Source: Bacillota bacterium
GTDB taxonomy: Bacteria; Bacillota; Sulfobacillia; Symbiobacteriales; ZC4RG38
Length of the DNA stretch: 32,584 nucleotides
Direction: 5' to 3'
Assembly: GCA_021890795.1 (NCBI GenBank)
Contig: JAKKUO010000025.1
Location: 1 to 32,584, forward strand
Shown: positions 72 to 20,884 of the stretch, in pieces
Layout of the letters: each line of letters opens with the position of its first letter
How positions within the stretch are numbered: position 1 is the first letter of the stretch
Notes under the pieces: model-generated
Seen by the model: the letters and a program-made list of their open reading frames with translations, nothing else
Database searches by the model: none
Told to the model about the DNA's origin: nothing
Program-made: the position numbers and the translations under genes

Positions 72-1553
72 CTACTCGTTGGTCACCCCGGTGACCTCCG
101 CCAGCTTGGCCCGGATCACCTTGTTGGCCAGCTGCGGGTTGGCCCGGCCCCGGGTGGCCTTCATCATCTGGCCGACGAGGAACTGGGCCGCGGTGGCCTT
201 GCCCTTCTTCCAATCCTCCACCGCCTTCGGGTTGGCCTCAATCACCTGCAGGGCGATCTCCGCCAGGGCCGCCTCGTCGGTGAGCTGGACCAGCCCCTTC
301 TCCTTGACGATCTCTTCCGCGGACTTCCCGGTCTCCACCATCTCCGCGAAGACTTCCTTGGCGATCTTGCCGGAGATGGTGCCGGTATCCACCAGCTTCA
401 GCATCCCCACCAGGTGGTCAGGGGTGAGGGGCGTCTGGGCGAGTTCGGCGTTCTTCTCGTTGAGGATCCGGGCCAGTTCGTTGATCACCCAGTTGGCGAC
501 GACCTTCGCTCCCTCGGTCCCCTTGCCGTAGGCGGCCACCGCCGCCTCGAAGAAGTCCGCCACCGCCTTGTCCCGGACGATCACCCCGGCGTCGTAGGCG
601 CTGAGGCCGTACTCCTCCATGTACCGGCGCTTCCGGGCGTCGGGAAGCTCGGGGAGCTGGGCCCGGATCCGCTCGATCTCCGCGTCGGTGAGGACAATGG
701 GCGGCAGGTCCGGCTCCGGGAAGTACCGGTAGTCGTGGGCCTCCTCCTTGGACCGGAGGGAGAGGGTGATCCCCCGGTCCTCGTCAAAGGCCCGGGTCTC
801 CTGGACGATCTCCTCGCCCCGCTGGAGGGCCTCCCACTGCCGCCGGGCCTCGTACTCGATGGCCCGCACCACGCTCCGGAAGGAGCCGAGGTTCTTCAGC
901 TCCGTCCGGGTACCCAGGGCGGTGGACCCCTTCGGCCGGACCGAGACGTTGACATCCGCCCGCATCTGCCCTTCCTGGAGCTTGGCCTCCGTGACCCCGG
1001 CGTAGATGAGGATGCTCCGGAGCTTCTCCAGGAAGGCCCGGGCCTCCTCCGGCGAGCGGATGTCCGGCTCGGAGACGATCTCGATCAGGGGCACGCCGCA
1101 CCGGTTCAGGTCGATGTAGGAGGCCTGGGCCGCGGCGATGTTGTCGCCCGCGTGGATGTTCTTGCCCGCGTCCTCCTCCAGGTGGATCCGCCGGATGCCG
1201 ATGCGCTTGGGACCCTCGGGGGTGTCGATCTCCACGTACCCGTGCTCGCAGAGGGGCAGGTCGTGCTGGGAGATCTGGTATCCCTTGGGCAGGTCCGGGT
1301 AGAAGTACTGCTTCCGGTCAAACTTGGAGTACTTATTGATGGTGCAGTTCAGGGCCAGGCCGGCCCGGATGGCATACTCCAGCGCCTGCTGGTTCAGCAC
1401 CGGCAGGGTGCCGGGCATGCCCAGGCAGACGGGGCAGGTCTGGGTGTTGGGCTCGGCGCCGAAGGCCGTGGAGCAGCCGCAGAAGATCTTGCTCTTCGTC
1501 GCCAGCTCCACGTGGACTTCCAGGCCCACGACGATCTCGTACTCTCGGCTCAT
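72..1553 (-). CDS. gatB: Aspartyl/glutamyl-tRNA(Asn/Gln) amidotransferase subunit B
   Basis: GatB is the tRNA-binding and kinase-like subunit of the GatCAB amidotransferase. It activates misacylated Glu-tRNA(Gln) or Asp-tRNA(Asn) and transfers ammonia released by GatA. The protein is 493 residues, normal for the family. It opens with the typical VGLEVHVEL segment. The zinc-type cysteines are C25, C27, C40 and C43 (FCGC ... CPVC), and the C-terminal part matches the tail domain that contacts tRNA. The start is the ATG at 1553, because GGAGGT (1561-1566) lies seven bases upstream; a longer reading from a TTG at 1568 would begin inside that ribosome site. It is the last gene of gatC-gatA-gatB, 35 bases after gatA. 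Its presence implies that this organism makes Gln-tRNA and/or Asn-tRNA by the indirect route. Confidence 0.97.
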   Translation of the reverse strand: MSREYEIVVGLEVHVELATKSKIFCGCSTAFGAEPNTQTCPVCLGMPGTLPVLNQQALEYAIRAGLALNCTINKYSKFDRKQYFYPDLPKGYQISQHDLPLCEHGYVEIDTPEGPKRIGIRRIHLEEDAGKNIHAGDNIAAAQASYIDLNRCGVPLIEIVSEPDIRSPEEARAFLEKLRSILIYAGVTEAKLQEGQMRADVNVSVRPKGSTALGTRTELKNLGSFRSVVRAIEYEARRQWEALQRGEEIVQETRAFDEDRGITLSLRSKEEAHDYRYFPEPDLPPIVLTDAEIERIRAQLPELPDARKRRYMEEYGLSAYDAGVIVRDKAVADFFEAAVAAYGKGTEGAKVVANWVINELARILNEKNAELAQTPLTPDHLVGMLKLVDTGTISGKIAKEVFAEMVETGKSAEEIVKEKGLVQLTDEAALAEIALQVIEANPKAVEDWKKGKATAAQFLVGQMMKATRGRANPQLANKVIRAKLAEVTGVTNE

Positions 1554-1588
1554 CCCTGCTACCTCCAACTTCCCCAGGCGGGGTGGGG

Positions 1589-3061
1589 CTACTGGCCCAG
1601 GGCCGGCCGGGTCTGATGATGCTGGGTGACCTTCTCATAGGCGTAGGCGACCCGGAGCACCGTCGGCTCGTCGAAGTGCCGGCCGATGATCTGTAGCCCC
1701 ACGGGCAGCCCCTGGCTCAGGCCGCAGGGGATGCTGATGGCAGGCAGTCCGGCCAGGTTGGCGGGGATGGTCAGGATGTCGGCCATGTACATGGCCAGGG
1801 GGTCGTCCAGCCGCTCCCCCAGGCCCCAGGCTACGGTTGGGGAGGTGGGGGCGACCAGGACGTCAAACCGCCGGAAGGCCGCCTCAAAGTCCCGGATCAC
1901 CAGGGTGCGGACCTGCTGGGCCTTCTTGTAGTACGCGTCGTAGTACCCGGCGGAGAGGGCGTAGGTGCCGAGCATGATCCGGCGCTTGACCTCCAGCCCG
2001 AAGCCCTGCTGCCGGGTGCGGAGGTACATCTCCGTCACGGAGTCCGCCTCTGCCCGCAGCCCGTAGCGGACGCCGTCGTACCGGGCCAGGTTGGAGGAAG
2101 CCTCCGCGGTCGCCACGATGTAGTAGGCGTCCAGGGCGTACTCGGTATGGGGGAGGGAGACCTCGTCCACCGTCGCACCGAGCTCGGCCAGCTTGGCGAT
2201 GGCCTGCTCCACCGCCTGCCGCACCCCGGGTTCGACCCCCTGGGCGAAGTACTCCCGGGGCACCCCCACCCGGATGCCGCTCAGGTTCGGGTCGGTGGGT
2301 AGCTGGATCCGCTGCAGCCGGTCCGCGTCGGGGTGGGAGGTGGAATCCCGGCGGTCATAGCCGGCGATGACCGAGAGCAGGAGGGCGGCGTCGGCCACGT
2401 CCTTGGTGATGGGGCCGATCTGGTCCAGGGAGGAAGCGAAGGCCACCAGCCCGTACCGGCTCACCGCCCCGTAGGTCGGCTTCAGCCCCACCACCCCGCA
2501 GAGGGCGGCGGGCTGCCGGATGGAGCCGCCGGTATCGGACCCCAGGGCCGCGGCGCAGAGGTCCGCCGCCACCGCGGCCGCCGAGCCGCCGGAGGAGCCA
2601 CCGGGAACCCGGCTGATGTCCCAGGGGTTGCGGGTCACCTGGAAGGCCGAGTTCTCGGTGGAGGAGCCCATGGCGAACTCGTCCAGGTTGGTCTTGCCGA
2701 TGATGATGGCCCCGGCCGCCTGCAGCCGGCTGACCACCGTCGCGTCGTACGGGGGGACGAAGTTCTCCAGGATCCGGGAGGCACAGGTGGTCCGGATCCC
2801 CTGGGTGCAGATGTTGTCCTTGATCGCCACCGGCACCCCGGCCAGGGGCCCCAGGGCCGTGTCGCCGGCCTTGCGCCGGGCGTCGAGCTTCCGGGCCCGC
2901 TCCCGGGCTTCCGCGGCGGTGACGGTCAGATACGCGCCCACCTGGCCGTCCACCGCCTGAATCCGTTCAAGGTACGCCTCCACAATCTCCTCGGCGGAGA
3001 GTTCCCCAGCCAGGAACAGGCGATTCAGACGGGTTGCCGTGAGCTTGGTCGTGGCACTCAC
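1589..3061 (-). CDS. gatA: Aspartyl/glutamyl-tRNA(Asn/Gln) amidotransferase subunit A
   Basis: GatA is the glutaminase subunit of GatCAB, an amidase-signature enzyme that frees ammonia from glutamine and passes it to GatB. The protein is 490 residues, the usual size. The Ser-cisSer-Lys catalytic set is visible: Lys81 in PVAIKDN, the cis-Ser in the GGSSGGS motif near residue 156, and the nucleophile Ser179 in [11 protein letters not shown]. The start is a GTG at 3061, with GAGGAGG about ten bases upstream. It lies 24 bases after gatC and 35 bases before gatB, in the order gatC-gatA-gatB known from Bacillus. Nothing in the sequence suggests a defect. Confidence 0.97.
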
Positions 3062-3085
3062 CGGAATGAATCCTCCTCGCTGCCC

Positions 3086-3376
3086 TTAGCCTTCCGTGAT
3101 CTTGGGCACCTTGAAAGCCCCCGCCTCTGCCTGCGGGGCGTTGCGGAGGGCAGCCTCCTGGGACAGGGATTCCTGTACCGTATCAGTCCGCAGGACGTTC
3201 TGAAGCGGCAGCACGTGGTAGGTGGGGGGAACGTCCCGGGTATCCACCTGCCGCAGAACTTCCATGTGTGCGAGGATACGGCCGAGTTGCTCCGTCAGGG
3301 CCTCTATCTCCGCCTCCGTGAGGCCCAGCCGGGCCAGCCTGGCGACGTGTTCCACCTCGGCCCTGGAAATGGCCAC
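3086..3376 (-). CDS. gatC: Aspartyl/glutamyl-tRNA(Asn/Gln) amidotransferase subunit C
   Basis: GatC is the small subunit that wraps around the GatA-GatB interface and stabilises the complex. The protein is 96 residues, typical in length. It begins with the recognisable helix ISRAEVEHVARLARLGLTEAE and ends with the usual variable tail (KVPKITEG). The start is the GTG at 3376, preceded by AAAGGAGG with an eight-base gap; a longer reading from 3406 starts upstream of this ribosome site and is rejected. It is the first gene of the gat operon. A sigma-A-type promoter lies about 65 bases upstream, and the divergent marR gene begins about 265 bases away. Confidence 0.95.
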   Translation of the reverse strand: MAISRAEVEHVARLARLGLTEAEIEALTEQLGRILAHMEVLRQVDTRDVPPTYHVLPLQNVLRTDTVQESLSQEAALRNAPQAEAGAFKVPKITEG

Positions 3377-3440
3377 CGGTAAACCCTCCTTTCGCCGCTG
3401 CTGCAAGAGCGCCCGCAGAGGAGAGAAGGATTACCGTGCT

Positions 3441-3469
3441 ATTTTACCATGGGCACCGGAGCGGAGCAA
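3441..3469 (-). promoter_or_regulatory. Predicted sigma-A promoter of gatCAB
   Basis: On the minus strand a -35-like TTGCTC (3464-3469) and a -10 box TAAAAT (3441-3446, five of six consensus bases) are separated by exactly 17 bases. Transcription would start near 3434, giving a leader of about 58 nt to the gatC start codon. This is one of the few AT-richer patches in a GC-rich window. The -35 match is only moderate. Confidence 0.6.
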
Positions 3470-3537
3470 CGAGACCCGCCCGGAGGGTCTTTGTCGATTT
3501 ATGTCGTACCTGCCACGTTTTCGCCCGCAAAAGGAGA

Positions 3538-3550
3538 GCAATTCAATTGC
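3538..3550. promoter_or_regulatory. Palindromic operator candidate in front of marR
   Basis: GCAATT-C-AATTGC is a perfect 6-1-6 palindrome. It overlaps the -35 position of the predicted marR promoter and lies about 70 bases upstream of the gatCAB -35 box. MarR-family dimers commonly bind such AT-rich palindromes over their own promoters, so autoregulation is a reasonable inference. Binding itself is not shown by the sequence. Confidence 0.5.
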
Positions 3551-3576
3551 ACGGGGAGGACATTTGTATGTATAAT
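3547..3576 (+). promoter_or_regulatory. Predicted promoter of the MarR-family gene
   Basis: A perfect -10 hexamer TATAAT lies at 3571-3576. The only -35 candidate is TTGCAC (3547-3552), which matches the consensus in its first three bases and has an 18-base spacer. Transcription would start near 3583, about 60 bases before the preferred start codon. The -35 overlaps the palindrome at 3538-3550. Confidence 0.55.
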
Positions 3577-3641
3577 CGTGATGACAAGGATGCCTGCCAG
3601 GACCGATGGCAACGACTCAGATGCCTGCCGGGGGTGGCGCT

Positions 3642-4151
3642 ATGACCCGCGGAGATGCCGCGGCCAAGTCGGCGGAGATCTTGCACCTGTTGATGATCTG
3701 TTTCCGGAATTTTGAGTTGGCACTGGACCGTTTCGCTCACCAGCACTGGGAGCTGACAGCCAGCCAGTTGCGGGTCCTCCTCTATCTCCGGCCCGGGCAG
3801 GCGATCCCCGCCCTGCACCTGGCCCGGCGGCTGCACCTGGACCCCGGCACCGTGAGCGGCCTGATCCGGAGGGTACGGGAAAAGGGGCTGATCAAGGCCG
3901 AACAGCTCTCCGCCGACCGGAGGGTGCAGCTCATCTCCCTCACCCCCCGGGGCGAGGAGGTCCGGAAGGAGATTCTGGAGCGGGCCGTAGCCACAGCACC
4001 CTGGCAGAGCCTGCAGTCCATCTCGGACGAGGAGCGGCAGCAGATCCTGGATGGGCTTACCTGGCTGGCCCGCCAGGTGACGCCGCCGGAGGTGCTGGAG
4101 TGGAGCCTGGGGGAGCTGCGGGCCCTCCTCGGGGTCGCCGGCGACCGGTAA
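3642..4151 (+). CDS. MarR-family transcriptional regulator
   Basis: This is a DNA-binding regulator of the MarR family, 169 residues from the ATG at 3642. The winged helix is clear: LTASQLRVLLYL, then the recognition region LDPGTVSGLIRRVREKGLI, then the wing with the family signature SADRRVQLISLTPRGEEV. Flanking helices provide the dimer interface. The chosen start has GGGGGTGG about eight bases upstream. An ATG at 3606 would add twelve residues but has only AGGA four bases away. The gene stands alone, divergent from gatCAB and convergent with oppF, and is closed by a bidirectional terminator. A palindrome over its own promoter suggests autoregulation. The ligand and any other target genes cannot be read from the sequence; the ABC ATPases or an efflux system elsewhere are possibilities only. 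Confidence 0.92.
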   Translation: MTRGDAAAKSAEILHLLMICFRNFELALDRFAHQHWELTASQLRVLLYLRPGQAIPALHLARRLHLDPGTVSGLIRRVREKGLIKAEQLSADRRVQLISLTPRGEEVRKEILERAVATAPWQSLQSISDEERQQILDGLTWLARQVTPPEVLEWSLGELRALLGVAGDR

Positions 4152-4220
4152 CTTCCCGCCCAGAGGGTGCAACCCCGGTGCGCTCACCGGCAACCCGCAG
4201 CGCTGCCGACCACAGTGCGC

Positions 4221-4255
4221 AAAGCCCGGTTCGCGACGGACGCGAACCGGGCTTT
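4221..4255. terminator. Bidirectional terminator between marR and oppF
   Basis: A perfect 15-bp stem (4221-4235 with 4241-4255) has a 5-nt loop. The stem ends in AAA and TTTT, so it offers a U-tract in both directions. It sits between two convergent genes, 69 bases after the marR stop and 12 bases after the oppF stop. Confidence 0.88.
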
Positions 4256-4267
4256 TCGTACGTCCGG

Positions 4268-5272
4268 TCACCGGGTGCGGACGTGGCAGGCCACCCAGTG
4301 GTCGTTGCCGATGTCCACCAGCGAGGGCTCGACCTCCCGGCAGATCTCTTCCGCCAGCCGGCACCGGGTGTGGAACCGGCAGCCCGACGGCGGGTTGATG
4401 GGGCTCGGCACATCCCCTTCGAGGATGATCCGCTCCCGGCGCACCGTCGGGTCGGGGATCGGGATCGCGGACATCAGGGCCTCGGTGTAGGGGTGCCGGG
4501 GATTGGCGTAGATCTCCCGCTTGTCCGCGATCTCCACCAGCTTGCCCAGGTACATCACCCCGACCCGGTCGGAGATGTGCTTCACCACCGCCAGGCCGTG
4601 GGCAATGAAGAGGTAGGTGAGGCCGAACTCCTTCTGCAGGTCCGAGAGCAGGTTGAGGATCTGGGACTGGATGGAGACGTCCAGGGCGGAGACCGGCTCG
4701 TCGCAGACGATCAGCTTGGGGTTGAGGGCCAGAGCCCGGGCGATGCCGATCCGCTGCCGCTGGCCGCCGGAGAACTCATGGGGATACCGCCGGGCGTGGT
4801 AGGAGGCAAGGCCCACCACTTCCAGGAGCTGCTGGACCCGCTTCTCCTTCTCCCGCCCCCGGGCCACCCCGTGGATCTCCAGGGGCTCGCCGATGATCTC
4901 CCCCACGGTCATCCGGGGGTTGAGGGAGGCGTAGGGGTCCTGGAAGATGATCTGCATCTCCCGGCGGAGCTTACGCATCTCTTCCTTATTAAGTTCAAAG
5001 ATGTTCCGGCCCTCAAAGTAGACGGCGCCAGCGGTGGGCTCCTGGAGCCGGAGGAGCACCTTGCCCAGGGTGGTCTTGCCGCACCCCGACTCCCCCACCA
5101 GGCCGAAGGTCTCCCCCCGGCGGATGGTGAAGCTCACGCCGTCCACCGCCTTGACGTGGCCCACCACCCGGGAGATGATGCTGCCGCCGGTGACCGGGTA
5201 CCACTTCTTCAGGTTCTCAACCCGGACCAGGGTCTCCCCCTGGGCCTGCTGGAGCGGAGCAGCGAGTGCCAT
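4268..5272 (-). CDS. oppF: Oligopeptide/dipeptide ABC transporter ATP-binding protein (OppF/DppF type)
   Basis: This is the second of two ATPases that power import by an Opp/Dpp-type ABC transporter on the cytoplasmic face of the membrane. It has 334 residues. Walker A is GESGCGKT (residues 60-67), the signature is FSGGQRQR, Walker B is [12 protein letters not shown], and the C-terminal region carries the oligopeptide-ATPase motif GCRFHTRC, which in some relatives binds an iron-sulfur cluster. The H-loop reads IAHGLAVV where the family normally has AHDL: the His is kept and the Asp is Gly. The start is the ATG at 5272, overlapping the oppD stop by one base (TGATG), which implies translational coupling; a longer reading from 5392 would run into oppD. 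No permease or binding-protein gene is in the window, so the substrate is unknown. Confidence 0.9.
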
Positions 5273-6267
5273 CAGACCGTAACCCCCTTGGCCAAGCGTT
5301 CTGCTGCGACGTGGCAGGCGACCATCCGGCCGTCCCCCACCGGCTCGAGGGGCGGCTCCACCTCCCGGCACTTGTCGATGGCGTAGGGGCACCGGGGGTG
5401 GAAGCGGCAGCCCTGGGGCATGTTCAGCGGGTTGGGCACCACGCCCTCGATGACGTGCAGCCGCTCCCGGTCCTCATCGAGGCGGGGGATGGACTGGAGC
5501 AGCCCCTCGGTGTACGGGTGAAGCGGCTGCTTGAAGAGGGAGACCACGTCGGCCTCCTCCACCACCTTGCCGGCGTACATGACCACGACCCGCTCGCACA
5601 TCTCGGCCACCACGCCCAGGTCGTGGGTGATCAGCATGATGGCCATGCCCAGTTCCTTCTTGAGCTTGCGCATCAGGTCCAGAATCTGGGCCTGGATGGT
5701 CACGTCCAGGGCCGTGGTAGGCTCGTCGGCGATGAGGAGCTTTGGGTTGCAGGAGAGGGCCATGGCGATCATGACCCGCTGCCGCATCCCGCCGCTCATC
5801 TGGTGCGGATAGTCCCGGACCCGCTTCTCCGGCGCCGGGATCCCAACGAGCCGGAGCATCTCCACCGCCTTGGCCATGGCTTCCTTGTAGTTGAGCCCCT
5901 GGTGGAGCATGATCGCTTCCGCGATCTGGTCCCCGACGGTGAAGACCGGGTTAAGGGAGGTCATGGGCTCCTGAAAGATCATCGAGATCTCGTTGCCCCG
6001 GATCTTCCGCATCTCCGGCTCCGGCAGCTTCAGGAGGTCCCGGCCCTCGAAGAGGATCTCACCTTCCACGATCTTCCCGGGGGGGCTCGGGATCAGCCGC
6101 ATGATGGAAAGGGAGGTTACGCTCTTGCCGCAGCCGGACTCCCCGACCACGCCCAGGGTCTCGCCCCGGCGGATGTAGAGGCTCACGCCGTCAACCGCCG
6201 GCATGACCCCGTCTTCGGTGTAGAAATAAGTGCGTAGGTTGCGGATCTCCACCAGCTTGTCGCTCAT
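5272..6267 (-). CDS. oppD: Oligopeptide/dipeptide ABC transporter ATP-binding protein (OppD/DppD type)
   Basis: This is the first ATPase of an Opp/Dpp-type importer pair, 331 residues. Walker A is GESGCGKS (42-49), the Q-loop is [12 protein letters not shown], the signature is MSGGMRQR, Walker B is [12 protein letters not shown], and the H-loop is ITHDLGVV, all intact. The C-terminal [11 protein letters not shown] region is typical of the OppD/OppF family. The ATG at 6267 has AAGGAGTGA about seven bases upstream. A GC-rich hairpin (6294-6317) lies just in front of that ribosome site in the leader. OppD and OppF normally work as a heterodimer with two permeases and a lipoprotein receptor; those partners must be encoded elsewhere, or the pair serves another permease set. 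Confidence 0.92.
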
Positions 6268-6642: not shown

Positions 6643-11083
<4,441 letters not shown>

Positions 11084-11107
11084 CGGATGCAACCTCCTGG
11101 CTGAGCT

Positions 11108-11167
11108 TTCACCCGCCGGGCGGAAGACCCGGCCGGCTTCACCTGCAGGGCAGAAGACCTGCCCGGC
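11108..11167 (-). repeat. Two tandem 30-bp hairpin repeats in the pcrA leader
   Basis: Positions 11108-11137 and 11138-11167 are direct repeats that agree at 25 of 30 bases. On the minus strand each can fold into a small hairpin around a shared GTCTTC-type loop. In one unit the stem is GGGCAG/CTGCCC. The other unit has a G-C pair where this one has A-T, plus one mismatch. They lie 10-70 bases upstream of the pcrA ribosome site. Confidence 0.6.
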
Positions 11168-11239
11168 CATGGCAGAAGGGCCGCGCGCTGCCGCGCCGGC
11201 CCGATCGGCTTCCTCGTTCCGGTTCCAGGAGATTCGCCG

Positions 11240-11269
11240 CCCCGGCCCGGCCATCCTGCCGGACCGGGG
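11240..11269 (-). terminator. Hairpin after pncB, possible terminator
   Basis: A 12-bp stem (11240-11251 with 11258-11269, one G-U pair in the minus-strand RNA) closes a 6-nt loop eleven bases after the pncB stop. There is no U-tract behind it, so termination is only a possibility. It marks the boundary between the NAD salvage operon and pcrA. Confidence 0.4.
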
Positions 11270-11279
11270 CAGTACCTGA

Positions 11280-12731
11280 TTACGGGCCCCCGCCCCGGAC
11301 GGCGTGGACCATCTCGTTCTTCAGCTTCCACAGCGCCGGGGAGAGGTCCACGGGATAGATCTCCGGGTTGACCAGCCGCTTGTACTCGTCCCAGAAGGTC
11401 GCCAGCTCCTGCCGGACGTACTCCCGGATCGCGCTGAGGGGCGGCGGGGTGTAGACCAGCTCGCCCCGGCGGAAGATGGGCACCAGCAGCTCCCGGGCTT
11501 CAAAGCCCTCCACGGTCTTCCGCCGCCAGGGGTGAACCGGGTCGAAGAGGGTGATCGCCGGGCCCGTGGGGGTGGGCTCGTCGGCCAGCATGATCAGGTC
11601 GCCCGCGGCCATGCCGGTGGACTTTTCGTAGATCCGCACCGCCTTCTTGACCCCGGGGTTGGTCACCTTGGCCGGGTTATCCGAGACCTTGATCTTGGGC
11701 ACCATCTGGCTGCCCACCTGGGTCGCGGCCAGCTTGTAGACCCCGCCCAGGGCGGGCTGATCCCGGGCGGTGATCAGGTTGGTGCCCACCCCCCAGACGT
11801 TGACCCGGGCCCCCTGGGCCTTCAGGTCCCGGATCAGGTACTCGTCCAGGTCCGAGGTCGCCACGATCAGGGCGTCGGGGTAGCCCGCCTCGTCCAGCAT
11901 CTTCCGGGCCACCTTGGACAGGTAGGCCAGGTCGCCGCTGTCCAGGCGGATGCCGAGGAACTTGCCCCCCGCGGCCTCCACCTCCCGGGCCACCTTCAGG
12001 GCGTTGGGCAGGCCGCTGCGCAGGGTGTCGTAGGTGTCCACCAGGAAAAGGACGCTGGCGGGGAAGGCCCGGGCCCAGGCCCGGAAGGCCTCGATCTCGC
12101 TCTCGAAGAACTGCACCCAGGCGTGGGCATGGGTGCCGACCACCGGGATCTGGAAGAGCTTGCCGGCCAGGAGGTTGGAGGTCGCCTCACACCCGGCGAG
12201 GATCGACGCCCGGGCCCCGTACAGCCCGGCGTCCGGGCCGTGGGCCCGGCGCAGGCCGAACTCCAGGACCTTGTCCCCCTGGGCGGCCTGGACCACCCGG
12301 GCGGCCTTGGTCGCGATCAGGGTCTGGTGGTTGATGATGTTCAGCAGCGCGGTCTCCACCAGGTGGGCCTGGATCACCGGGGCGGTCACCCGCAGGAGGG
12401 GCAGGTTGGGGAAGACCACCGTCCCTTCCGGCACCGCGTCCACGTCGCCGGTGAACCGGAGATCCCGCAGATACCTGAGGAACTCCTCGTCGTAAAGCCC
12501 CAGGCTCCGGAGGTACTCCAGATCGTCCTGGGTGAACCGGAAGTTCAGCAGGTACTCGATGGCCGTCTCCAGCCCGGCGGCGATGGCGTAGCCGTTGCCA
12601 AAAGGATTGGCCCGGTAGAAGAGGTCAAAGACCACCGGCGTCTCGTGGGTGCCGTTCCGGAAATGCGCGTAGGCCATGTTCAGTTGGTAAAGATCCATGA
12701 GCAGGGTCAGGTTGCGGGGCTCCCCCAACAC
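11280..12731 (-). CDS. pncB: Nicotinate phosphoribosyltransferase
   Basis: PncB converts nicotinate and PRPP to nicotinate mononucleotide, usually with ATP hydrolysis, the second step of the Preiss-Handler NAD salvage route. The 483-residue protein matches the long bacterial form. The N-terminal segment is [18 protein letters not shown]. The core contains [24 protein letters not shown] and the phosphoribosyl-binding region [13 protein letters not shown] followed by [13 protein letters not shown]. The GTG start at 12731 has GGAGGAGG seven bases upstream. It is the last gene of nrtR-pncA-pncB, 69 bases after pncA; that gap holds an 8-bp hairpin (12758-12765 with 12773-12780). Together with PncA it recycles nicotinamide into NAD. 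Confidence 0.96.
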
Positions 12732-12800
12732 CGTTTCGCCTCCTCCGTCCCTCGGTGACCGGGCCGCTTGAGGGCCCGGTTTCCGCTGCAGGGCCTGGGC

Positions 12801-13400
12801 TCACAGGACGATGCAGCCCGCGGCCCGCATCTCCTCCAGCCCCTGCCGGTGGCTCTCAGGGCTGAAGCTGGCCACCCCGGCCTCGTAGACCGCCACCTCC
12901 AGCCCCCGCTGCCGGGCGGCCTTGGCGGTGTGGCAGACGCAGATGGGGGTGACCAGGCCCACCAGTTCGACCCGGGTGATGCCGTACTTGGCGATCAGGC
13001 CGTCCAGGCCCAACCCCAGATCCTCCGCCGGGCCGTCGGTCACCCGGCCGAGGAAGGCATCGAAGGTCGGCTTCTCAATGAGGTAGATGGGCCGGCCGGC
13101 CAGCCGCTGCCGATCCACCACCTGCTGCACCGGGTCCACCAGTTGCCAGCCCCAGGAGTACCGCAGGCAGTGGGGGCCGAACTCCCGGAACTCCGCTTCC
13201 CCCCAGACCCGGAACTCCGGGGTGCCGGGCTGGTGGGTGTCCAGGGTGCAGGCCACCAGGGCCCCCGCGGCCAGCGCGGCCTCCATTCGCTCCACCACGA
13301 AGGGGGTGGTGGCCTGGGCCGCGGCTCCGGAGGTGAGCGCCCCCCGGTCGTCCTCGAAATCCCGCTGCTTGTCGATGACCAAGAGCAGCGTCCTCGCCAT
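12801..13400 (-). CDS. pncA: Nicotinamidase (isochorismatase-fold cysteine hydrolase)
   Basis: The predicted reaction is nicotinamide to nicotinate plus ammonia. The 199-residue protein carries the expected catalytic triad Asp10 (VIDKQRDF), Lys110 (IEKPTFDAF) and Cys154 (TPICVCHTA), and a metal site Asp54, His56 and His77 (TLDTHQPGT ... GPHC) as in known nicotinamidases. The ATG at 13400 has GGGAGGT seven bases upstream; a GTG three codons earlier overlaps that site. It lies between nrtR and pncB, which makes nicotinamidase much more likely than another isochorismatase-family hydrolase. A 5-bp hairpin (13421-13425 with 13432-13436) lies in the 36-base gap after nrtR. Confidence 0.92.
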   Translation of the reverse strand: MARTLLLVIDKQRDFEDDRGALTSGAAAQATTPFVVERMEAALAAGALVACTLDTHQPGTPEFRVWGEAEFREFGPHCLRYSWGWQLVDPVQQVVDRQRLAGRPIYLIEKPTFDAFLGRVTDGPAEDLGLGLDGLIAKYGITRVELVGLVTPICVCHTAKAARQRGLEVAVYEAGVASFSPESHRQGLEEMRAAGCIVL

Positions 13401-13436
13401 GGACGGCACCTCCCGTGAAGCCCCCTTTGCAGGGGG

Positions 13437-14285
13437 TCACTTGGTAATCAGGGTGAAGTCCCCCTGAAACCGGTACAGGTCCGCGGCCGGCCCCCGGGCG
13501 CCCTTCCGCTTCTTGCCGGTCTTCACCAGGGGGGGCTGGTACTGGCCGGTGCGGGCCTCCATCAGCCGGCCCACCCGCTCGTTCAGCAGGTGGATGCTCC
13601 GCTGGAAGTTGGCCTTCCGCCGCTCGTCGTAGGTGCCCAGGTCCTCGTCCAGGATCGCCTCGTAGACCTGCCGCAGCTCGGACATGGTGAACTCCTCGGG
13701 CAGCAGGCAGAAGGCCAGCAGGGTGTAGTCCACCTTGTTCCGCAGCCGCTGCAGCGCGTCGCTCAGGATCTGATCGTGGTCCAGGGCAAACCGCCGGTCC
13801 GACCCGGGCACCGGGGCGGGCGGCAGGTGGTCGACGGGGAACCAGGCCGCGTCGGGAGCGGTGGGGCCGTAATCCGTCGGCGCCACCAACCCCATGTAGG
13901 CGGTGGCGATGGTCCGCCGCAGGGGGTTGCGGTACGGGTCGTCGTAGGTGCGGAGCTGCTCCAGGTAGATGGGGCCTTTCAGCCCCACCCGGCGGCCAAG
14001 CTCCCAATAGGCTGCCTCCTGAAAGGATTCCCGCACGCCCACCGGCGCGCTGGGCAGGGCCCACCACCCCTGCCAGGGCTCCGTGCTGCGCCGGACCAGA
14101 AGCACCCGGAGTTCCTTCGGCGGCCGGCCGGGGCGGCGCCGTTCCGGCGGGCGATCGGCGATGGTGAAGAGGGCGATCTCGACGGTGTGGCTGACGTCCC
14201 AGAGGCCAGACCGCACCAGCCTGACCCGCCTGGGCAGTTCCCGGGTCGATGGCCGAACCGACACCTTCTCCCTTGCTCCCTCCAT
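13437..14285 (-). CDS. nrtR: NrtR-type regulator of NAD metabolism (degenerate Nudix plus winged helix)
   Basis: NrtR proteins join a Nudix-fold sensor domain that binds ADP-ribose to a C-terminal winged helix and repress NAD genes. In this 282-residue protein the Nudix fold spans roughly residues 30-170 (VEIALFTI ... RVLLVRRSTEPWQGWWALPS). Its Nudix box is degenerate: the REUxEE core reads WELGRR, so hydrolysis is unlikely and a sensor role likely. The winged-helix part follows (FTMSELRQVYEAILDEDLGTYDERRKANFQRSI), ending in a basic tail. It is the first gene of nrtR-pncA-pncB, which fits the function. The ATG at 14285 lies about 26 bases after the predicted transcription start and has only a weak ribosome site (CGGGA); a GTG at 14264 is an alternative. 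The longer reading from 14345 starts upstream of the promoter. Confidence 0.9.
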   Translation of the reverse strand: MEGAREKVSVRPSTRELPRRVRLVRSGLWDVSHTVEIALFTIADRPPERRRPGRPPKELRVLLVRRSTEPWQGWWALPSAPVGVRESFQEAAYWELGRRVGLKGPIYLEQLRTYDDPYRNPLRRTIATAYMGLVAPTDYGPTAPDAAWFPVDHLPPAPVPGSDRRFALDHDQILSDALQRLRNKVDYTLLAFCLLPEEFTMSELRQVYEAILDEDLGTYDERRKANFQRSIHLLNERVGRLMEARTGQYQPPLVKTGKKRKGARGPAADLYRFQGDFTLITK

Positions 14286-14308
14286 TCCCGCGGCAATGGC
14301 CGGCGGCA

Positions 14309-14333
14309 AAACAGTGTCATTATCACACGGTTT
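14309..14333 (-). promoter_or_regulatory. Palindromic operator overlapping the nrtR promoter
   Basis: This 25-bp element is an imperfect palindrome in which 10 of 12 half-site pairs match. Its core, GTGTGATAATGACAC on the minus strand, contains the likely -10 box GATAAT (14319-14324) preceded by TG one base earlier, an extended -10. No good -35 is visible. An operator lying on the -10 box of an operon whose first gene is an NrtR-type repressor strongly suggests autoregulation in response to ADP-ribose or NAD status. Confidence 0.65.
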
Positions 14334-14366
14334 GCCATTAAGCATACCACACCGGGGCCCGGCCGT

Positions 14367-17321
14367 CTACCCGGCCTGACCCGGCGGCGCGGGGAGCCAG
14401 ACCCGGAAGGTGCTCCCGGCGCCGGGCTCCGACTCCACCTCGATGCGGCCCCCGTGGGCCTCCACCACCGCGTAGCAGATGGCCAGCCCCAGCCCCGTGC
14501 CCCGCTCCTTGGTGGTGAAGAACGGGGTGAAGAGGGAGACCCGGGTTTCCGGCGGGATCCCGACCCCGTGGTCCCGGACCGCGAACCAGGCCTCCGGCCC
14601 GCAGGCGCCGGTGGAGAGGACGAGCCGCCGGTCCGGCCGCCCGGCCATGGCTTCCACCCCGTTCCGGACCAGGTTGATGGCCACCTGCCGGAGCCGCTCC
14701 TCGTCGCCCCAGGCCACCGCGGGCTCCGGGTCGTAGGCCCGGAGGACCGTCACCCCGGCCTGCTCCAGTTCCGGCCGGAGGAGCTGAACCACCTCGTCGA
14801 GAAGCCGGGGAAGGCTGACCGGGGCCCGGGCCGGGTCCCCCGGCCGGGCCAGGAGCAGCATGTCCGAGACCAGCCCCTCGATCCGGTCGATCTCCCGGAT
14901 CAGGATCTCCGCGTACTCCCGGAAGGGGCTGCCGGGCTCCGCCTCCTGGTGGATGAGCTGGGCAAAACCCCGGATGGCGGTGAGGGGGTTGCGGATCTCG
15001 TGGGCGGCCCCCGCGGCCAGCTTCCCCAGGTCCGCGAGGCGGGCCACCCGCTGCACCTCCTGCTCCATCTGCCGGACCCGGGTGACATCCCAGCCCAGGG
15101 CCAGGGCCCCCCGGGTCTGCCCCTCGGCGTCCCGGAGGGGCACGGCCCGGAGCTCAATGTACCGGCCCGGCTGGGGCTCCCAGATCACGCAGCCGACGCT
15201 CTGGCCGGCCAGGGCCTGCCGGAGAGGCCGGGCCGACTCCAGGTCCGGAAAGGGATCGCCGACGGCCAGGGCCGGGTAGCCCCCGGCCTGGAGCATCTCC
15301 CGGGCCGTCTGGTTGATCAGGGTGATCCGGCCCTCGACGTCCAGGGCCACCACCCCGGTGGGGAGCTGCTCGATCAGCGTCCCCAGGAACCGGCGCATCT
15401 CGTCGATCCGCAGCATCCGCTCCCGGGCCTCGGCCAGCAGGAGCCCGTTGTCCACCGCCAGGGCCGCCTGCCCGGCGACCAGCTCCAGAAGGCTGACCTG
15501 CCGGGGCGTAAAGCCGTCGCCGCTCCGCTGGCCGACAAAGAGGAGGCCCACCGTCCGGCCCCGGGCCACCAGCGGGAAGTACCCCGCGGCCCGCACCCCT
15601 TCCGCCACGGCGACGGCCCGGGCCAGGGTGCCCGGCGGGTTGGCGGCCAGGTCCGGGACCAGCAAGGGGTGCTGGCTGAGGAGCACCCGGGTGACGGGCC
15701 CCCCGTCCAGGGGCAACCGGGTTCCCAGGAGGCTCAGCCGCTGGAACCCCCGGGCGGCCCGGACGGAGAGGGCCGCTCCGTCCGGGTCCCGGAGGGCAAG
15801 AAAGACGCAGCCGCCGGTCAGCGCCGCCACCGCGTCGGCCACCTGCTCCGCCGCGGTGGCCGGGTCGGTGGTGGTGCCCAGGAGCTGGCCCAGCTCCGCC
15901 ACCGCCAGGACCTCCGGGGAGAGCCGGTCAAGCCAGGTGAGCCGGTGCCGGAGGGGCCAGAGCAGCCGGCCGAGGGGCCCGGGCATCCACCCGGACACCG
16001 GCCCGTTCCCCGGGGACCGGAGCTGCCGGAGGATCCGGGCCACCCGCTCCCGGCTCCCCCGCTGGGCGGCATCGTCGGCCCGGAGCACCTCCTGGGCGGC
16101 CCGGACCACCTCCGGGTCGAGCCGGCGCCCCTCCTGCTGCCGGAGCCACTGCCGGGCCGACTCGACCTGGGCGCCGGGGTCCGGCAGGGGCTGCCGGCTG
16201 GCCGCCAGGGGATCCTCCAGCTCCGGGGGCGGGGTGAGGAGCCAGGCGAGGCCGTTCGCCGCCGCCAGCACCCGGGCCGCGAGGGGGATGGCATCGCCCC
16301 GGGCCGGGGGCACCCCGGTGCCGTCCCACCAGGCGTAGCGGTACCGCAGGATCCGGGCGACGGGGGCCAGGGGGCCGATCCGGGCCGCCAGGGCGGCCAC
16401 CGCCGCCGCCCGCCGGGCCAGCTCCCCCCGGAGGGCGGGGGCCGGCGGGTCCGGGGCCAGGTCGACCTCCGGCTGGGAAGGCGGCTGGGCCGCATCCTGG
16501 AGCACCGCGGCGTAGCCCAGGAGCCGGAGTTCCTCCTCCGGCAGGCCGAGGGCGCTGCCGATGCCGTAGGCGTAATGGAGCACCCGCTCCTGCCGGCCGG
16601 GGTAGGCCTGGCGGCTCAAGCCGATGCGCTGGATCAGCTCGTCCACCGCCCGGTCCTGGAAGACCCGGTTGAGAAGCTGGCCCAGCCACCGCTGGGCAAG
16701 GGCAAGGGCCGCCACCGCCGCCGGCTCGGCCGCCGGCAGGGCCAGGAAGACCAGGCCGGCCCCGGTCAGGTAGTAAGCGACGGCCCACAGGCTCTCCCCG
16801 AGGATATCGGCGTAGACCCGCCAGAACCCCTCGGAACGGCTGCGGGCTAGGAAGACGGCGTCCAGAGCCCGGCCGCCCAGCCAGGTGCCCACGGCGCTGG
16901 CCACCAGGGCCAGCGCCTCCCGGTTTGCCGGAGCCAGGCCAGCCCCCGCGGCCAGGGCCAGGAGGCGGAACAGAAGGGCTCCGCCGAGGGCGGCGGCCCG
17001 GATCGCCAGGATGGCAAGGAGGTCGGCCCGCTCCCGGACCAGAGCCAGGAAGCAGACAGCGGCGGCCACCGAGGTCGCTGCGGTAATGGGACCGTGGAGG
17101 GCTAGGACCGCGACCAGGAGCCCCCCGGCGATGGAGACCCGGCCACCGCTCTGCGGCAGCAGGAGTCCCCCCTGGACGCCGGTGGCCATGGCGAGCCCGT
17201 AGAGCACCCCGAGCCCCACCTGGCCCTCCCTGCCGGACAGGGGGCCCAGCACCAGGGCCATAGCCAGCACCGCCAAGAGCCCCGGCAGCAGGTCGTCGAG
17301 CCGGCGCATCCCCCTGCCCAC
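14367..17321 (-). CDS. Membrane sensor histidine kinase with degenerate HD-GYP, GAF and PAS domains
   Basis: The protein has 984 residues from the GTG at 17321, which has GGAGGT seven bases upstream. Residues about 10-220 are a multi-helix hydrophobic domain, probably a membrane sensor. Residues about 240-412 follow the HD-GYP phosphodiesterase plan, but the metal sites are lost: LHDIGK reads LQDAA, HHE reads YAW, and only DGTGVPPA, IPLAARVL and LDPEVV remain. A GAF domain (about 470-630), a PAS domain (about 645-750, LPTGVVALDVEGRITLINQTA) and the kinase core follow. His774 in AAHEIRNPL is the phospho-acceptor. The N box is NLVRNGVEAM, then DHGVGIP, FTPFFTTKERGTGLGL. No response regulator is encoded beside it, so it is an orphan kinase. 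The signal is unknown. Confidence 0.9.
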   Translation of the reverse strand: MGRGMRRLDDLLPGLLAVLAMALVLGPLSGREGQVGLGVLYGLAMATGVQGGLLLPQSGGRVSIAGGLLVAVLALHGPITAATSVAAAVCFLALVRERADLLAILAIRAAALGGALLFRLLALAAGAGLAPANREALALVASAVGTWLGGRALDAVFLARSRSEGFWRVYADILGESLWAVAYYLTGAGLVFLALPAAEPAAVAALALAQRWLGQLLNRVFQDRAVDELIQRIGLSRQAYPGRQERVLHYAYGIGSALGLPEEELRLLGYAAVLQDAAQPPSQPEVDLAPDPPAPALRGELARRAAAVAALAARIGPLAPVARILRYRYAWWDGTGVPPARGDAIPLAARVLAAANGLAWLLTPPPELEDPLAASRQPLPDPGAQVESARQWLRQQEGRRLDPEVVRAAQEVLRADDAAQRGSRERVARILRQLRSPGNGPVSGWMPGPLGRLLWPLRHRLTWLDRLSPEVLAVAELGQLLGTTTDPATAAEQVADAVAALTGGCVFLALRDPDGAALSVRAARGFQRLSLLGTRLPLDGGPVTRVLLSQHPLLVPDLAANPPGTLARAVAVAEGVRAAGYFPLVARGRTVGLLFVGQRSGDGFTPRQVSLLELVAGQAALAVDNGLLLAEARERMLRIDEMRRFLGTLIEQLPTGVVALDVEGRITLINQTAREMLQAGGYPALAVGDPFPDLESARPLRQALAGQSVGCVIWEPQPGRYIELRAVPLRDAEGQTRGALALGWDVTRVRQMEQEVQRVARLADLGKLAAGAAHEIRNPLTAIRGFAQLIHQEAEPGSPFREYAEILIREIDRIEGLVSDMLLLARPGDPARAPVSLPRLLDEVVQLLRPELEQAGVTVLRAYDPEPAVAWGDEERLRQVAINLVRNGVEAMAGRPDRRLVLSTGACGPEAWFAVRDHGVGIPPETRVSLFTPFFTTKERGTGLGLAICYAVVEAHGGRIEVESEPGAGSTFRVWLPAPPGQAG

Positions 17322-17460
17322 TATGTTCACCTCCCGTTGGGGAAAGGCTAAGGTCATGGGGAAACGCTAGTGTCGAATTCGGCAGCCACCGCCGGGCTCC
17401 TGCGGTACCGGCCGGGCCGCGGGCCGAGGGCCGGCGGGGCTTGGGAAGAGGGCTGGTGCC

Positions 17461-19218
17461 ATGCCGTCCGACACGGGACGCCCGCTCATCGTCCAGAGCA
17501 ACCACGAGCTGCTGTTGGATGCCGAACACCCCATGGCCGAGGCGGCCCGGGAGGCCCTGGCCGGGTTTGCGGAACTGGTCCGGGCCCCGGAGCACGTCCA
17601 CACCTACCGGCTGACCCCCCTCACCCTCTGGAACGCCGCGGCCGCCGGCCTCACCCCGGCCGAGGTGCTGGCCGCCCTCGGCCGGTTCAGCCGCTACCCC
17701 CTGCCGGCCAGCCTCCGGGCCGAGGTGATCGACCGGATGGGGCGCTACGGCCGGGTGAAACTGGTCCGGGAGGAAGGCGAACTGCGGCTGGTCTCCGAGA
17801 GCCGGGTCCTCCTGGAGGAGGTGGCCCGGCACCGGCTGACCCGGCCCTACGTCCTGGCCGACCGGGGGGAGGAGGGCCTCGCGGTCCACCCGGACCGCCG
17901 GGGTCACTTGAAGATGGCCATGACCCGGCTGGGGTACCCGGTGGAGGACCTGGCGGGGTACGTGGAGGGGGCGCCCCTGCCGGTGGCCCTCCGGGACCGG
18001 ACCCTGGCCGGCCAGCCCCTGCGGCTCCGCCCCTACCAGGAGGCCGCGGTGGCCCGGTTCTACCAGGAGGGGCGGGCCACCGGCGGCTCCGGGGTGGTGG
18101 TGCTGCCCTGCGGGGCCGGGAAGACCGTGGTCGCCCTGGCGGCCATGGCCGCGGTGGGGGCCCAGACCCTGATCCTCACCTCCAACGTCACCGCGGTGCG
18201 GCAGTTCATCCGGGAGATCCGGGACAAGACGGATCTCGCCCCGGAACTGGTGGGGGAGTACACCGGGGAGATGAAAGAGGTGCGGCCGGTCACCGTCACC
18301 ACCTACCAGCTCCTGGCCCGTCGGGAGCCGGGCCGGGACCGGTTCCCCCACCTGGCTCTCTTCAACCGGATGGACTGGGGGCTGGTGATCTACGACGAGG
18401 TCCACCTGCTGCCGGCGCCGGTCTTCCGGGTAACCGCGGAGATCCAGGCCCGGCGGCGGCTGGGGCTCACGGCCACCCTGGTCCGGGAGGACGGCCGGGA
18501 GGAGGACGTCTTCAGCCTCATCGGCCCGAAGCGCTACGAACTCCCCTGGCGCTCTTTGGAGCGGCAGGGGCACATCGCCCGGGCCACCTGCTGGGAGGTC
18601 CGGGTCCCCCTGCCGGAGGCGGAGCGGCTGGCCTACGCCCTGGCCGACGAGCGGAGCCGCTTTCGGCTCGCCGCGGAGAACCCCGCCAAGCTGCCCCTGG
18701 TGGAGCGGATCCTCGCCCTGCACCCCGGGGAGCCGGCCCTGGTCATCGGCCAGTACCTGGGCCAGCTCCAGGCCCTCAGCCGGCGGCTGGGGGCGCCGCT
18801 CATTACCGGTCAGACCTCCAACCGGGAGCGGGAGGCCCTCTACGCCCGTTTCCGGTCCGGGGCCGAGCGGGTGCTGGTGGTCTCCAAGGTGGCCAACTTT
18901 GCGGTGGACCTCCCGGACGCCAGCCTGCTGATCCAGGTCTCCGGCACCTTCGGCAGCCGGCAGGAGGAGGCCCAGCGGCTCGGCCGGGTCCTCCGGCCCA
19001 AGGCCGACGGCCGGGCGGCCCACTTCTACTCCCTGGTCACCGGGGAGACCCGGGAGGAGGGGTTCGCCCGGAACCGGCAGACGTTCCTCACGGAGCAGGG
19101 CTACCGGTACCGGATCCTCCGGGCCGAAGACCTGGAGCCCGGGGCCACCGGCATCGAAAGCGGGGAGGTTCGCGAGGCCACCCGCATCGCCAGCGGGGAG
19201 ACCAGCGGGGAGGGGTGA
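17461..19218 (+). CDS. XPB-family DNA helicase (ERCC3-like)
   Basis: This is a 585-residue superfamily 2 helicase of the XPB type, related to archaeal and mycobacterial XPB, enzymes that unwind DNA 3'-5' in repair. The N-terminal part (residues 1-130, SNHELLLDAEHPMAEAAREAL) matches the domain found in front of bacterial XPBs. Walker A is LPCGAGKT (215-222), motif II is DEVH (312-315), motif III is GLTATL, and the XPB-specific RED motif is at 342-344 (VREDG). Motifs V and VI are SKVANFAVDLPDA and QRLGRVLRPK. The ATG at 17461 has a modest purine-rich site (AAGAGGG) upstream. It diverges from the sensor kinase with a 139-base gap and is followed after four bases by a second gene, the likely partner. 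Confidence 0.92.
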   Translation: MPSDTGRPLIVQSNHELLLDAEHPMAEAAREALAGFAELVRAPEHVHTYRLTPLTLWNAAAAGLTPAEVLAALGRFSRYPLPASLRAEVIDRMGRYGRVKLVREEGELRLVSESRVLLEEVARHRLTRPYVLADRGEEGLAVHPDRRGHLKMAMTRLGYPVEDLAGYVEGAPLPVALRDRTLAGQPLRLRPYQEAAVARFYQEGRATGGSGVVVLPCGAGKTVVALAAMAAVGAQTLILTSNVTAVRQFIREIRDKTDLAPELVGEYTGEMKEVRPVTVTTYQLLARREPGRDRFPHLALFNRMDWGLVIYDEVHLLPAPVFRVTAEIQARRRLGLTATLVREDGREEDVFSLIGPKRYELPWRSLERQGHIARATCWEVRVPLPEAERLAYALADERSRFRLAAENPAKLPLVERILALHPGEPALVIGQYLGQLQALSRRLGAPLITGQTSNREREALYARFRSGAERVLVVSKVANFAVDLPDASLLIQVSGTFGSRQEEAQRLGRVLRPKADGRAAHFYSLVTGETREEGFARNRQTFLTEQGYRYRILRAEDLEPGATGIESGEVREATRIASGETSGEG

Positions 19219-19222
19219 AGCC

Positions 19223-20884
19223 GTGGACCTCGCCAAGGCCCTTGCCGGCGCGCCGGATGACCAACTGGTCCGGATGGCCCGGGCCCACGGCCTCCCGGCG
19301 GCGCCGGACCGGCGGGAGCTCGTGGATCGGCTCCTCCGGCACCTCAGTGACCCGGGCCAGGTGGCCCGGAGCCTCAGCGAGCTTTCCCCGGAGGAGTGGG
19401 AGGCCCTGAAGGTGGTCTACTGGGGGGGCGGCCGCACCGGCATCACCGTGGAACTCTGCCAGGAGCTCGCCGGCAGCCTGGGGGGCCGGCGGCGGCCCGG
19501 CGCCGCCCGGGCCCTGGCCCGGCTCGCGGACAAGGGGCTCATTGGCACCTGGAAGTCCGGCTACCGGGAGGTCTACGTCATCCCCGGGGAGGTGCGGCCC
19601 GGGGTGGAGGCCGCCCTGCGGGCGGAGATGGTCCGGCGGGTGACCGTGGCCGGCCCGCCGGCGGAACCCGCCGCCGGAATCGACCTTCTGGAGGAACTCG
19701 TGCGGCTGCTGGCCTACCTCCGCCGGGGGCCGGTGCCCCTCACCCAGCAGGGCACCCTCCACCGGCGGCACCTGCGGGCCCTGTGGGGGCCCGCAGGCAC
19801 AGCCGAATGGGGCGAGTTCAGGGGGATGGGGGCCGAGGAGGCGGAGAGCAGCCCTGCGGAGACAGGCCGTGACTCGGCGGGCCGCCGCCCGGAGACGCTG
19901 GGGCTGCTAGTGGACTTCGCCCTGGCGGAGGGGCTTGCGCGGCAGCAGGGGGGCTCCCTCCACCCCGGGCCGGAACTGGAGCGGTGGCTCCGGCTGCCGG
20001 AGGAGAAGATGCGGGCCGGGCTCTACCGGTTCTGGTCCGGCCGCAGCCCTCAGCTGGAACTGCAGGCCTTTCTACACCTGGTCGGGGCGGTCGCACCCCG
20101 GTGGGTGAGGCTCGCCGCCGCGGCCGAGGAACTGGCGGCGGTGGTCCGCCCGGGTCAGCGGCCGGGGCTGCTCACCCGGCTCACCCACCACCTGCAGGAC
20201 GTCCTGGCCCCCCTGGGGCTGATGGCCGCCGCCCACACCGAGGATGGCGAACTCCTCTGCCGCCTCACCCCGGCAGGGGAGCGGATCCTGGCGCCGGATC
20301 TGCCCCCAGCGGGAGAGCGACTTCGGGCTCCAGACCTGGCCCCGGCGGGGGAGCGGCTTCGGGTCCCGGACCCGGAGGGCCCCGAGGCGCCGGACCGGGG
20401 CGAGGGGGCCGGATACCGGTTTGTCCTCCAGCCCAGCGGGGAGATCGTCGCGCCCCGGCCGGTGCCGGTCCCGGTCCTCTGGCGGCTCGAGGGGGCGGCG
20501 GACCTGGTCCGGCGGGGCCCGGCCCTGGTCTACCGCCTCAGCCGGGAGAGCGTCTACCGGGCCCTCCGAGCCGGGGAGACCGGACCCGGCCTCCGCGCGT
20601 TCCTGACCGAGCACAGCGCCACCGGCCTCCCCCAGAACCTGGCCTTTGACCTCGAGGCCTGGAGCCAGTCCTACGGGCAGGTCTACTTTCAGCAGCTCTG
20701 CCTCCTGCGTTGCGCCGACCCGGTGCTGGCGGCCCGGATCCGGGCGAGCCGGCGCACCGGGCCTTACATCCGGGGCGTCCTCACCCCCTGCGACCTGGTC
20801 GTCGACCCCCGGGATTACCCGGCCCTGGACCAGGCCCTCCAGGAGGAGGGGCTCCTGCCCAGGCCCGGGATCCTGCCGCCGTGA
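19223..20884 (+). CDS. Helicase-associated protein next to XPB (Helicase_C_3-like)
   Basis: This 553-residue protein has no enzyme motif that I can see. Its N-terminal part (residues 1-130: DDQLVRMARAHGL, LSPEEWEALKVVYWGGGRTGI, ALARLADKGLI) looks like a helical, winged-helix-like module. The C-terminal part (about 395-553: YRFVLQPSGEIVAPRPVPVPVLWRLEG ... YRLSRESVYRALRAG ... DLVVDP) resembles the Helicase_C_3 family found in proteins encoded beside XPB helicases in actinobacteria. Between them lies a threefold 12-residue repeat. The GTG at 19223 comes four bases after the helicase stop, with AGGGGTGA overlapping that stop, so the two are co-translated. The likely role is a partner or regulator of the helicase; this rests on context and family resemblance from memory. 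Confidence 0.75.
   Translation: MDLAKALAGAPDDQLVRMARAHGLPAAPDRRELVDRLLRHLSDPGQVARSLSELSPEEWEALKVVYWGGGRTGITVELCQELAGSLGGRRRPGAARALARLADKGLIGTWKSGYREVYVIPGEVRPGVEAALRAEMVRRVTVAGPPAEPAAGIDLLEELVRLLAYLRRGPVPLTQQGTLHRRHLRALWGPAGTAEWGEFRGMGAEEAESSPAETGRDSAGRRPETLGLLVDFALAEGLARQQGGSLHPGPELERWLRLPEEKMRAGLYRFWSGRSPQLELQAFLHLVGAVAPRWVRLAAAAEELAAVVRPGQRPGLLTRLTHHLQDVLAPLGLMAAAHTEDGELLCRLTPAGERILAPDLPPAGERLRAPDLAPAGERLRVPDPEGPEAPDRGEGAGYRFVLQPSGEIVAPRPVPVPVLWRLEGAADLVRRGPALVYRLSRESVYRALRAGETGPGLRAFLTEHSATGLPQNLAFDLEAWSQSYGQVYFQQLCLLRCADPVLAARIRASRRTGPYIRGVLTPCDLVVDPRDYPALDQALQEEGLLPRPGILPP
20264..20371 (+). repeat. Three in-frame 36-bp repeats in the XPB partner gene
   Basis: Three adjacent 36-base units (20264-20299, 20300-20335, 20336-20371) encode three versions of a 12-residue repeat of the form L-x-P-A-G-E-R-L/I-R/L-x-P-D. 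The units differ at many third positions, so the peptide is better conserved than the DNA. They join the N- and C-terminal parts of the protein. Confidence 0.85.

Follow-up and report, generated by a model that had tools for sequence, protein, structure and literature searches.

HD-GYP domains are usually regarded as output enzymes. SgmT of Myxococcus xanthus reportedly binds c-di-GMP through a GGDEF-type domain, not through an HD-GYP domain. Non-catalytic HD-GYP receptors, degenerate HD-GYP regulators and orphan kinases that bind c-di-GMP are all already known. The first are represented by DvhD of Desulfovibrio vulgaris, a c-di-GMP receptor in whose HD-GYP domain SQ replaces HD (PMC13090378), and the second by NosR, a degenerate HD-GYP response regulator (PMC12570481), while SgmT is both an orphan histidine kinase and a c-di-GMP receptor (PMC3509222). 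On the membrane side, a published analysis finds a link between the S-component fold and the membrane part of 5TMR histidine kinases (PMC11109136). A literature search, with most subscription journals outside its coverage, returned no earlier description of an HD-GYP domain as the input domain of a histidine kinase, and within the literature searched we found none of a fusion between the two.

Here we describe such a fusion, encoded in a 32,584-nucleotide stretch of DNA from a Bacillota bacterium (contig JAKKUO010000025.1), referred to as the window. We read the protein as an orphan sensor histidine kinase in which an HD-GYP pseudoenzyme forms the second domain and relays between the membrane sensor and the GAF-PAS-kinase part, and give this reading a probability of roughly 0.6.

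Domain layout of the kinase

The gene and its parts, numbered in codons from the ATG at 17357, are:

14367-17357 (-): membrane histidine kinase gene, 996 codons
16662-17312 (-): N-terminal membrane domain, residues ~16-232, predicted to hold six or more transmembrane helices
16017-16655 (-): HD-GYP-derived pseudoenzyme domain, approximately residues 235-447, from profile, fold and shuffled sequences
16308-16346 (-): remnant of the HHExxDGxGYP motif, RYRYAWWDGTGVP, residues 338-350
16143-16232 (-): insertion replacing the RPY loop, residues ~376-405
15450-15869 (-): GAF domain, residues 497-636 (Pfam)
15072-15371 (-): PAS domain, residues 663-762 (Pfam)
14838-15029 (-): HisKA dimerisation domain, residues 777-840 (Pfam), H-box HEIRNPLT with His786 at 15000-15002
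14385-14708 (-): HATPase_c domain, residues 884-991 (Pfam)

Both the GC content per codon position and the domain content mark 14367-17357 as a coding frame, the true start of which is probably the GTG at 17321, behind GGGAGGTG. The protein has the make-up of a HisKA-type histidine kinase, with HisKA and HATPase_c domains and the H, N, G1, F and G2 boxes all present. A frameshifted or truncated kinase was ruled out, the reading frame being open and every motif there. From the N-terminus, a polytopic membrane sensor leads by a long helix into the HD-GYP-derived domain, which a helical linker joins to GAF, PAS and HisKA/HATPase in turn.

An earlier note, made from the sequence, had placed a degenerate HD-GYP module at 16083-16604, which is correct and corresponds to residues ~252-425 of the kinase frame on the reverse strand. 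The profile search that it proposed finds Pfam HD_5 in this region (residues 248-372) above the cut-off, at 32.9 bits in the whole protein and 38.3 bits (E 1.5e-9) when the region is searched alone. Against a profile made only from 38 unfused HD-GYP proteins of related genomes the region scores 72.2 bits; the best of 2,000 shuffled sequences reached 5.2 bits, which rules out a chance match. This profile aligns from the first helix to beyond LDPEVV; the HD-GYP plan had been traced from LLGYAAVLQDA to LDPEVV. An AlphaFold2 model of the domain, built from 26 aligned sequences, has the HD-GYP fold at a mean pLDDT of 86.8, the alignment including intact relatives that pull it towards this fold, such that the model is not independent of homology. 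The structural ranking is headed by HD-GYP entries, namely DvhD (Z 17.0), V-cGAP3 (16.9), PmGH (16.6) and PA4781 (16.2), followed by Bd1817 (14.6) and then by other HD proteins, whose Z-scores are about 11 at most. The prediction of some other fold, which would have spoken against the module, was thus not seen, and profile matches and modelled structure together confirm that residues ~235-447 are HD-GYP-derived.

The membrane domain gave no match of any kind in Pfam, and so none to PF07694 or to MASE9; 9 of 27 relatives do match MASE9, the best with an E-value of 2.2e-12. No S-component match was found for it by sequence. In a two-domain model (mean pLDDT 81), model residues 28-197 resemble ECF S-components and CbiM-NikM, with Z-scores of 10.7-13.6 to NikM, RibU, ThiT, BioY and PanT over 155-181 residues, values that helical bundles can reach by their arrangement. 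The structures that VIA-align returned for this domain did not include 5TMR kinases. We treat an ECF S-component-like fold as a lead offered by the model.

Metal site and nucleotide contacts

When the kinase is aligned to intact HD-GYP domains, the seven ligand positions H-H-D-H-H-H-D read R-Q-D-R-R-Y-N, a loss of six of the seven. The earlier note had described the metal residues of the HD and HHE motifs as replaced, which stands for the His of HD (now Q287) and must be corrected for its Asp, which is kept as D288; the Glu of HHE, which it also counted, is absent from the ligand list of PmGH (PMC4159591). In place of HHExxDGxGYP the kinase reads RYAWWDGTGVP, retaining only DGxGxP, and the GYP loop survives as DGTGVP with the next residue deleted. 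The DGxGxP...G...P loop keeps its glycines and prolines invariant across the family, although the ligands vary. Replacing a ligand of PmGH by alanine all but eliminates its activity, except at E185 and D305 (PMC4159591). Given the loss of six of the seven ligands, hydrolysis of c-di-GMP or of another substrate by this domain appears very unlikely, in agreement with what had been proposed.

The residues that contact the nucleotide in PmGH and DvhD have also gone. The Tyr of GYP is Val, and the RPY loop, with its Arg and Tyr, has been replaced by the insertion, which occurs only in the window kinase and its same-genus relative. DvhD contacts Y523, L577, K582, Y621, M646, R650 and Y652 correspond to A, P, R, V, L, P and E, as mapped from published residue numbers onto the aligned sequence, a mapping in which any one position could be shifted by a residue. 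The earlier suggestion that the module may bind c-di-GMP is therefore weak for the window kinase, though some relatives keep these contacts. Judging from its residues, the window domain probably lacks canonical c-di-GMP binding, a survey of this kind being able to miss a ligand in a pseudo-active site, as DvhD binds c-di-GMP without metals (PMC13090378). The family members that keep the contacts are candidates for DvhD-like receptors. Loci L044 and L048 retain the equivalents of DvhD Y523, L577, Y621, M646, R650 and Y652 and are concrete candidates for c-di-GMP-sensing histidine kinases that use an HD-GYP domain; L044, which has lost five ligands yet kept most of the DvhD contacts, is a candidate receptor.

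Comparing the window with its same-genus relative, we obtained dN/dS values of 0.26 for the HD core, 0.28 for the membrane domain and 0.13 for GAF, with 0.93 in the 30-codon inserted loop, where sites are few. They point to purifying selection on the HD core, but come from one genome pair with few differences and are no more than indicative.

The kinase family and its chromosomal locus

We surveyed homologues for the layout of membrane domain, HD-GYP, GAF, PAS, HisKA and HATPase, and 25 of the 154 genomes of the class carry it. Among 398 sampled genomes of the phylum there were only six matches at E 1e-80, all within this class, and none with the layout was seen in the ~380 sampled genomes from outside it. 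The combination had been called unusual; it is indeed restricted to this class within the genomes searched, but there it forms a coherent family. The 25 loci include L171, with no recognised PAS, L039, which meets a contig edge before the kinase, and L047, where the kinase part lies in another frame. In L047 (genome G060, 852-5800) this part is out of frame with the membrane-HD-GYP-GAF part, through either a frameshift or a sequencing error. One more locus, L041, keeps its site intact but is cut off by a contig edge.

In 24 of the 25 family loci one or more metal ligands have been lost, the exception being L172. Counting all kinase-linked HD-GYP domains, at least one of the seven ligands is missing in 26 of 27 (two of these, from G041, have another architecture without a membrane domain), while 32 of the 38 unfused HD-GYP proteins have lost none. 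Fisher's test on this contrast gives p 2e-11, a value that overstates the evidence and should not be taken as if each locus had changed separately. A single fusion or origin of the kinase-linked group fits the tree, with weak branch support (41), and parsimony on this tree requires at least five changes between intact and degenerate. The window kinase, that of its congener and those of two genomes of the same order form one clade (support 97), in which six or seven ligands are lost. Loci L054 and L190 of G041 represent a second type of kinase-linked HD-GYP, lacking a membrane domain and degenerate (HHEGHLN, HHEGQFN).

The genes around the kinase in the window are:

6646-8688 (-): NAD-dependent DNA ligase LigA
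8717-11254 (-): UvrD/PcrA helicase
11283-12731 (-): nicotinate phosphoribosyltransferase PncB
12804-13409 (-): isochorismatase family protein, nicotinamidase PncA-like
13440-14345 (-): NUDIX and NrtR winged-helix regulator, following the kinase after 20-odd bases
17461-19215 (+): XPB/RAD25-type helicase, divergent from the kinase

Of the 22 loci whose flanks reach far enough, the window among them, 20 have UvrD/PcrA downstream of the kinase, mostly directly, a pattern that speaks for a single locus passed on vertically. Loci L177 and L178 have a family-4 glycosidase after the kinase instead. The synteny with UvrD/PcrA extends class-wide (window 6646-17357; loci L040-L058 and L170-L180), with LigA behind UvrD in several relatives, and so ties a membrane kinase to genes of DNA repair. 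On the other side, 17461-20881 (+) encodes the XPB/RAD25-type helicase and then a Helicase_C_3 protein, both divergent from the kinase; the pair also adjoins the kinase in L039 and L172, and XPB alone was seen in L040 and L042. Between the kinase and UvrD of the window sit the NrtR-type regulator, the PncA-like isochorismatase and PncB (11283-14345, reverse strand). These three are likely to form an NAD-salvage operon, which may share a transcript with the kinase; the set was not found at L040.

The observation that no response regulator is adjacent proved right, there being none among the scanned neighbours, from UvrD to NrtR and both genes on the helicase side. Nor was one found beside the kinase elsewhere in the window or among ten neighbours in relatives, and a partner would be encoded elsewhere in the genome. 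The genome carries 24 receiver domains, one of them with the output domain of Spo0A, as well as four clear GGDEF domains and four other HD_5 domains. We considered Spo0F/Spo0A as a candidate partner, because of the Spo0A in the genome and because the kinase core resembles the AtoS, ZraS and KinD models.

Role of the HD-GYP-derived domain

It is plausible, from conservation of the family, purifying selection on the HD core and intact kinase motifs, that the HD-GYP domain passes a signal to GAF, PAS and kinase, as the earlier note proposed. A signal from the membrane domain would move the long helix entering the HD-GYP domain, and this domain, being non-catalytic, would send the change via the linker to GAF, PAS and the kinase dimer, acting as a dimerising, allosteric relay without hydrolysis. 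Such a role is supported in principle by DvhD, in which the helices entering the non-catalytic HD-GYP domain splay apart on c-di-GMP binding (PMC13090378). Since relatives at the same chromosomal spot show wear in many stages, the most likely explanation is that a worn HD-GYP domain has been put to new use as a mechanical or sensory link, and that its wear is not random decay.

There are several competing explanations. One is that the domain has altered ligands but remains a metal-dependent phosphodiesterase. It could draw on the residual activity of the PmGH E185 and D305 mutants (PMC4159591) and on L172, the one family member with all seven ligands intact; however, the six positions lost in the window kinase have mostly become basic or bulky residues, and we rejected an active phosphodiesterase on these residues as hardly credible. 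It is also improbable that the domain is a dispensable relic tolerated in an otherwise normal kinase. Ligands have been lost progressively in several lineages, as a relic would allow, but the domain was never deleted in the 25 loci (though these were found partly through that domain), its core appears to be under purifying selection, and the GYP-loop glycines and prolines are retained.

The remaining two explanations give the domain a ligand. As a c-di-GMP receptor, it would gate the kinase in the way that the HD-GYP domain of DvhD gates a periplasmic output. DvhD (9rbz) is the best structural match and also has HD and HH replaced (PMC13090378), the Asn in the VAN position is common to both proteins, GGDEF domains are present in the genome, and relatives such as L044 and L048 keep the contacts. 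Yet in the window kinase the GYP Tyr has become Val, the RPY loop has given way to the insertion, and equivalents of Y523, L577, R650 and Y652 are absent, so that we think this reading unlikely. We are doubtful, too, that the domain senses a different small molecule on behalf of the kinase by binding it in a modified pocket. Many nucleotides are ligands of HD-fold proteins, and the pocket set R-R-Y-A-N is consistent in the window and its three nearest relatives and looks selected; against this, no ligand or ligand-binding motif was identified, and the loop that covers the pocket changes quickly (dN/dS 0.93 over its 30 codons).

The relay that we prefer probably descends from a membrane HD-GYP protein that was active or bound c-di-GMP and was later fused to a kinase. 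We suggest only tentatively that one vertically inherited locus holds a graded series, from a near-intact phosphodiesterase through a metal-dead, nucleotide-competent receptor to a ligand-free relay, such that these would be c-di-GMP-gated kinases whose input has been replaced in some lineages. The HD-GYP domain here stands on the input side of a histidine kinase, with many decay stages at the same locus in relatives, and these stages make a testable series for the passage from enzyme to sensor or relay.

Among known systems, DvhD shares with the kinase the HD-GYP fold, replaced HD and HH pairs, an Asn for the late Asp, and a membrane protein context with a PAS domain, and is its top structural match; it differs in having no kinase, in controlling a periplasmic protease partner and in retaining contacts to c-di-GMP that are missing from the window protein (PMC13090378). 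PmGH and other active HD-GYP phosphodiesterases have the fold, the GYP loop and the helix order in common with it, whereas the window protein has lost their metal site and nucleotide contacts and is fused to a kinase (PMC4159591). The unfused membrane HD-GYP proteins of the class (~450 aa, MASE9-like) show the same order of membrane domain and then HD-GYP, but have no GAF-PAS-kinase part and usually an intact metal site. In 5TMR sensor kinases a membrane domain of S-component fold feeds a histidine kinase, a likeness that for the window protein is only a prediction, and this protein does not match their PF07694; the text describing them makes no mention of HD-GYP (PMC11109136). SgmT resembles the window protein in being an orphan kinase with a c-di-GMP-related domain within the kinase polypeptide (PMC3509222).
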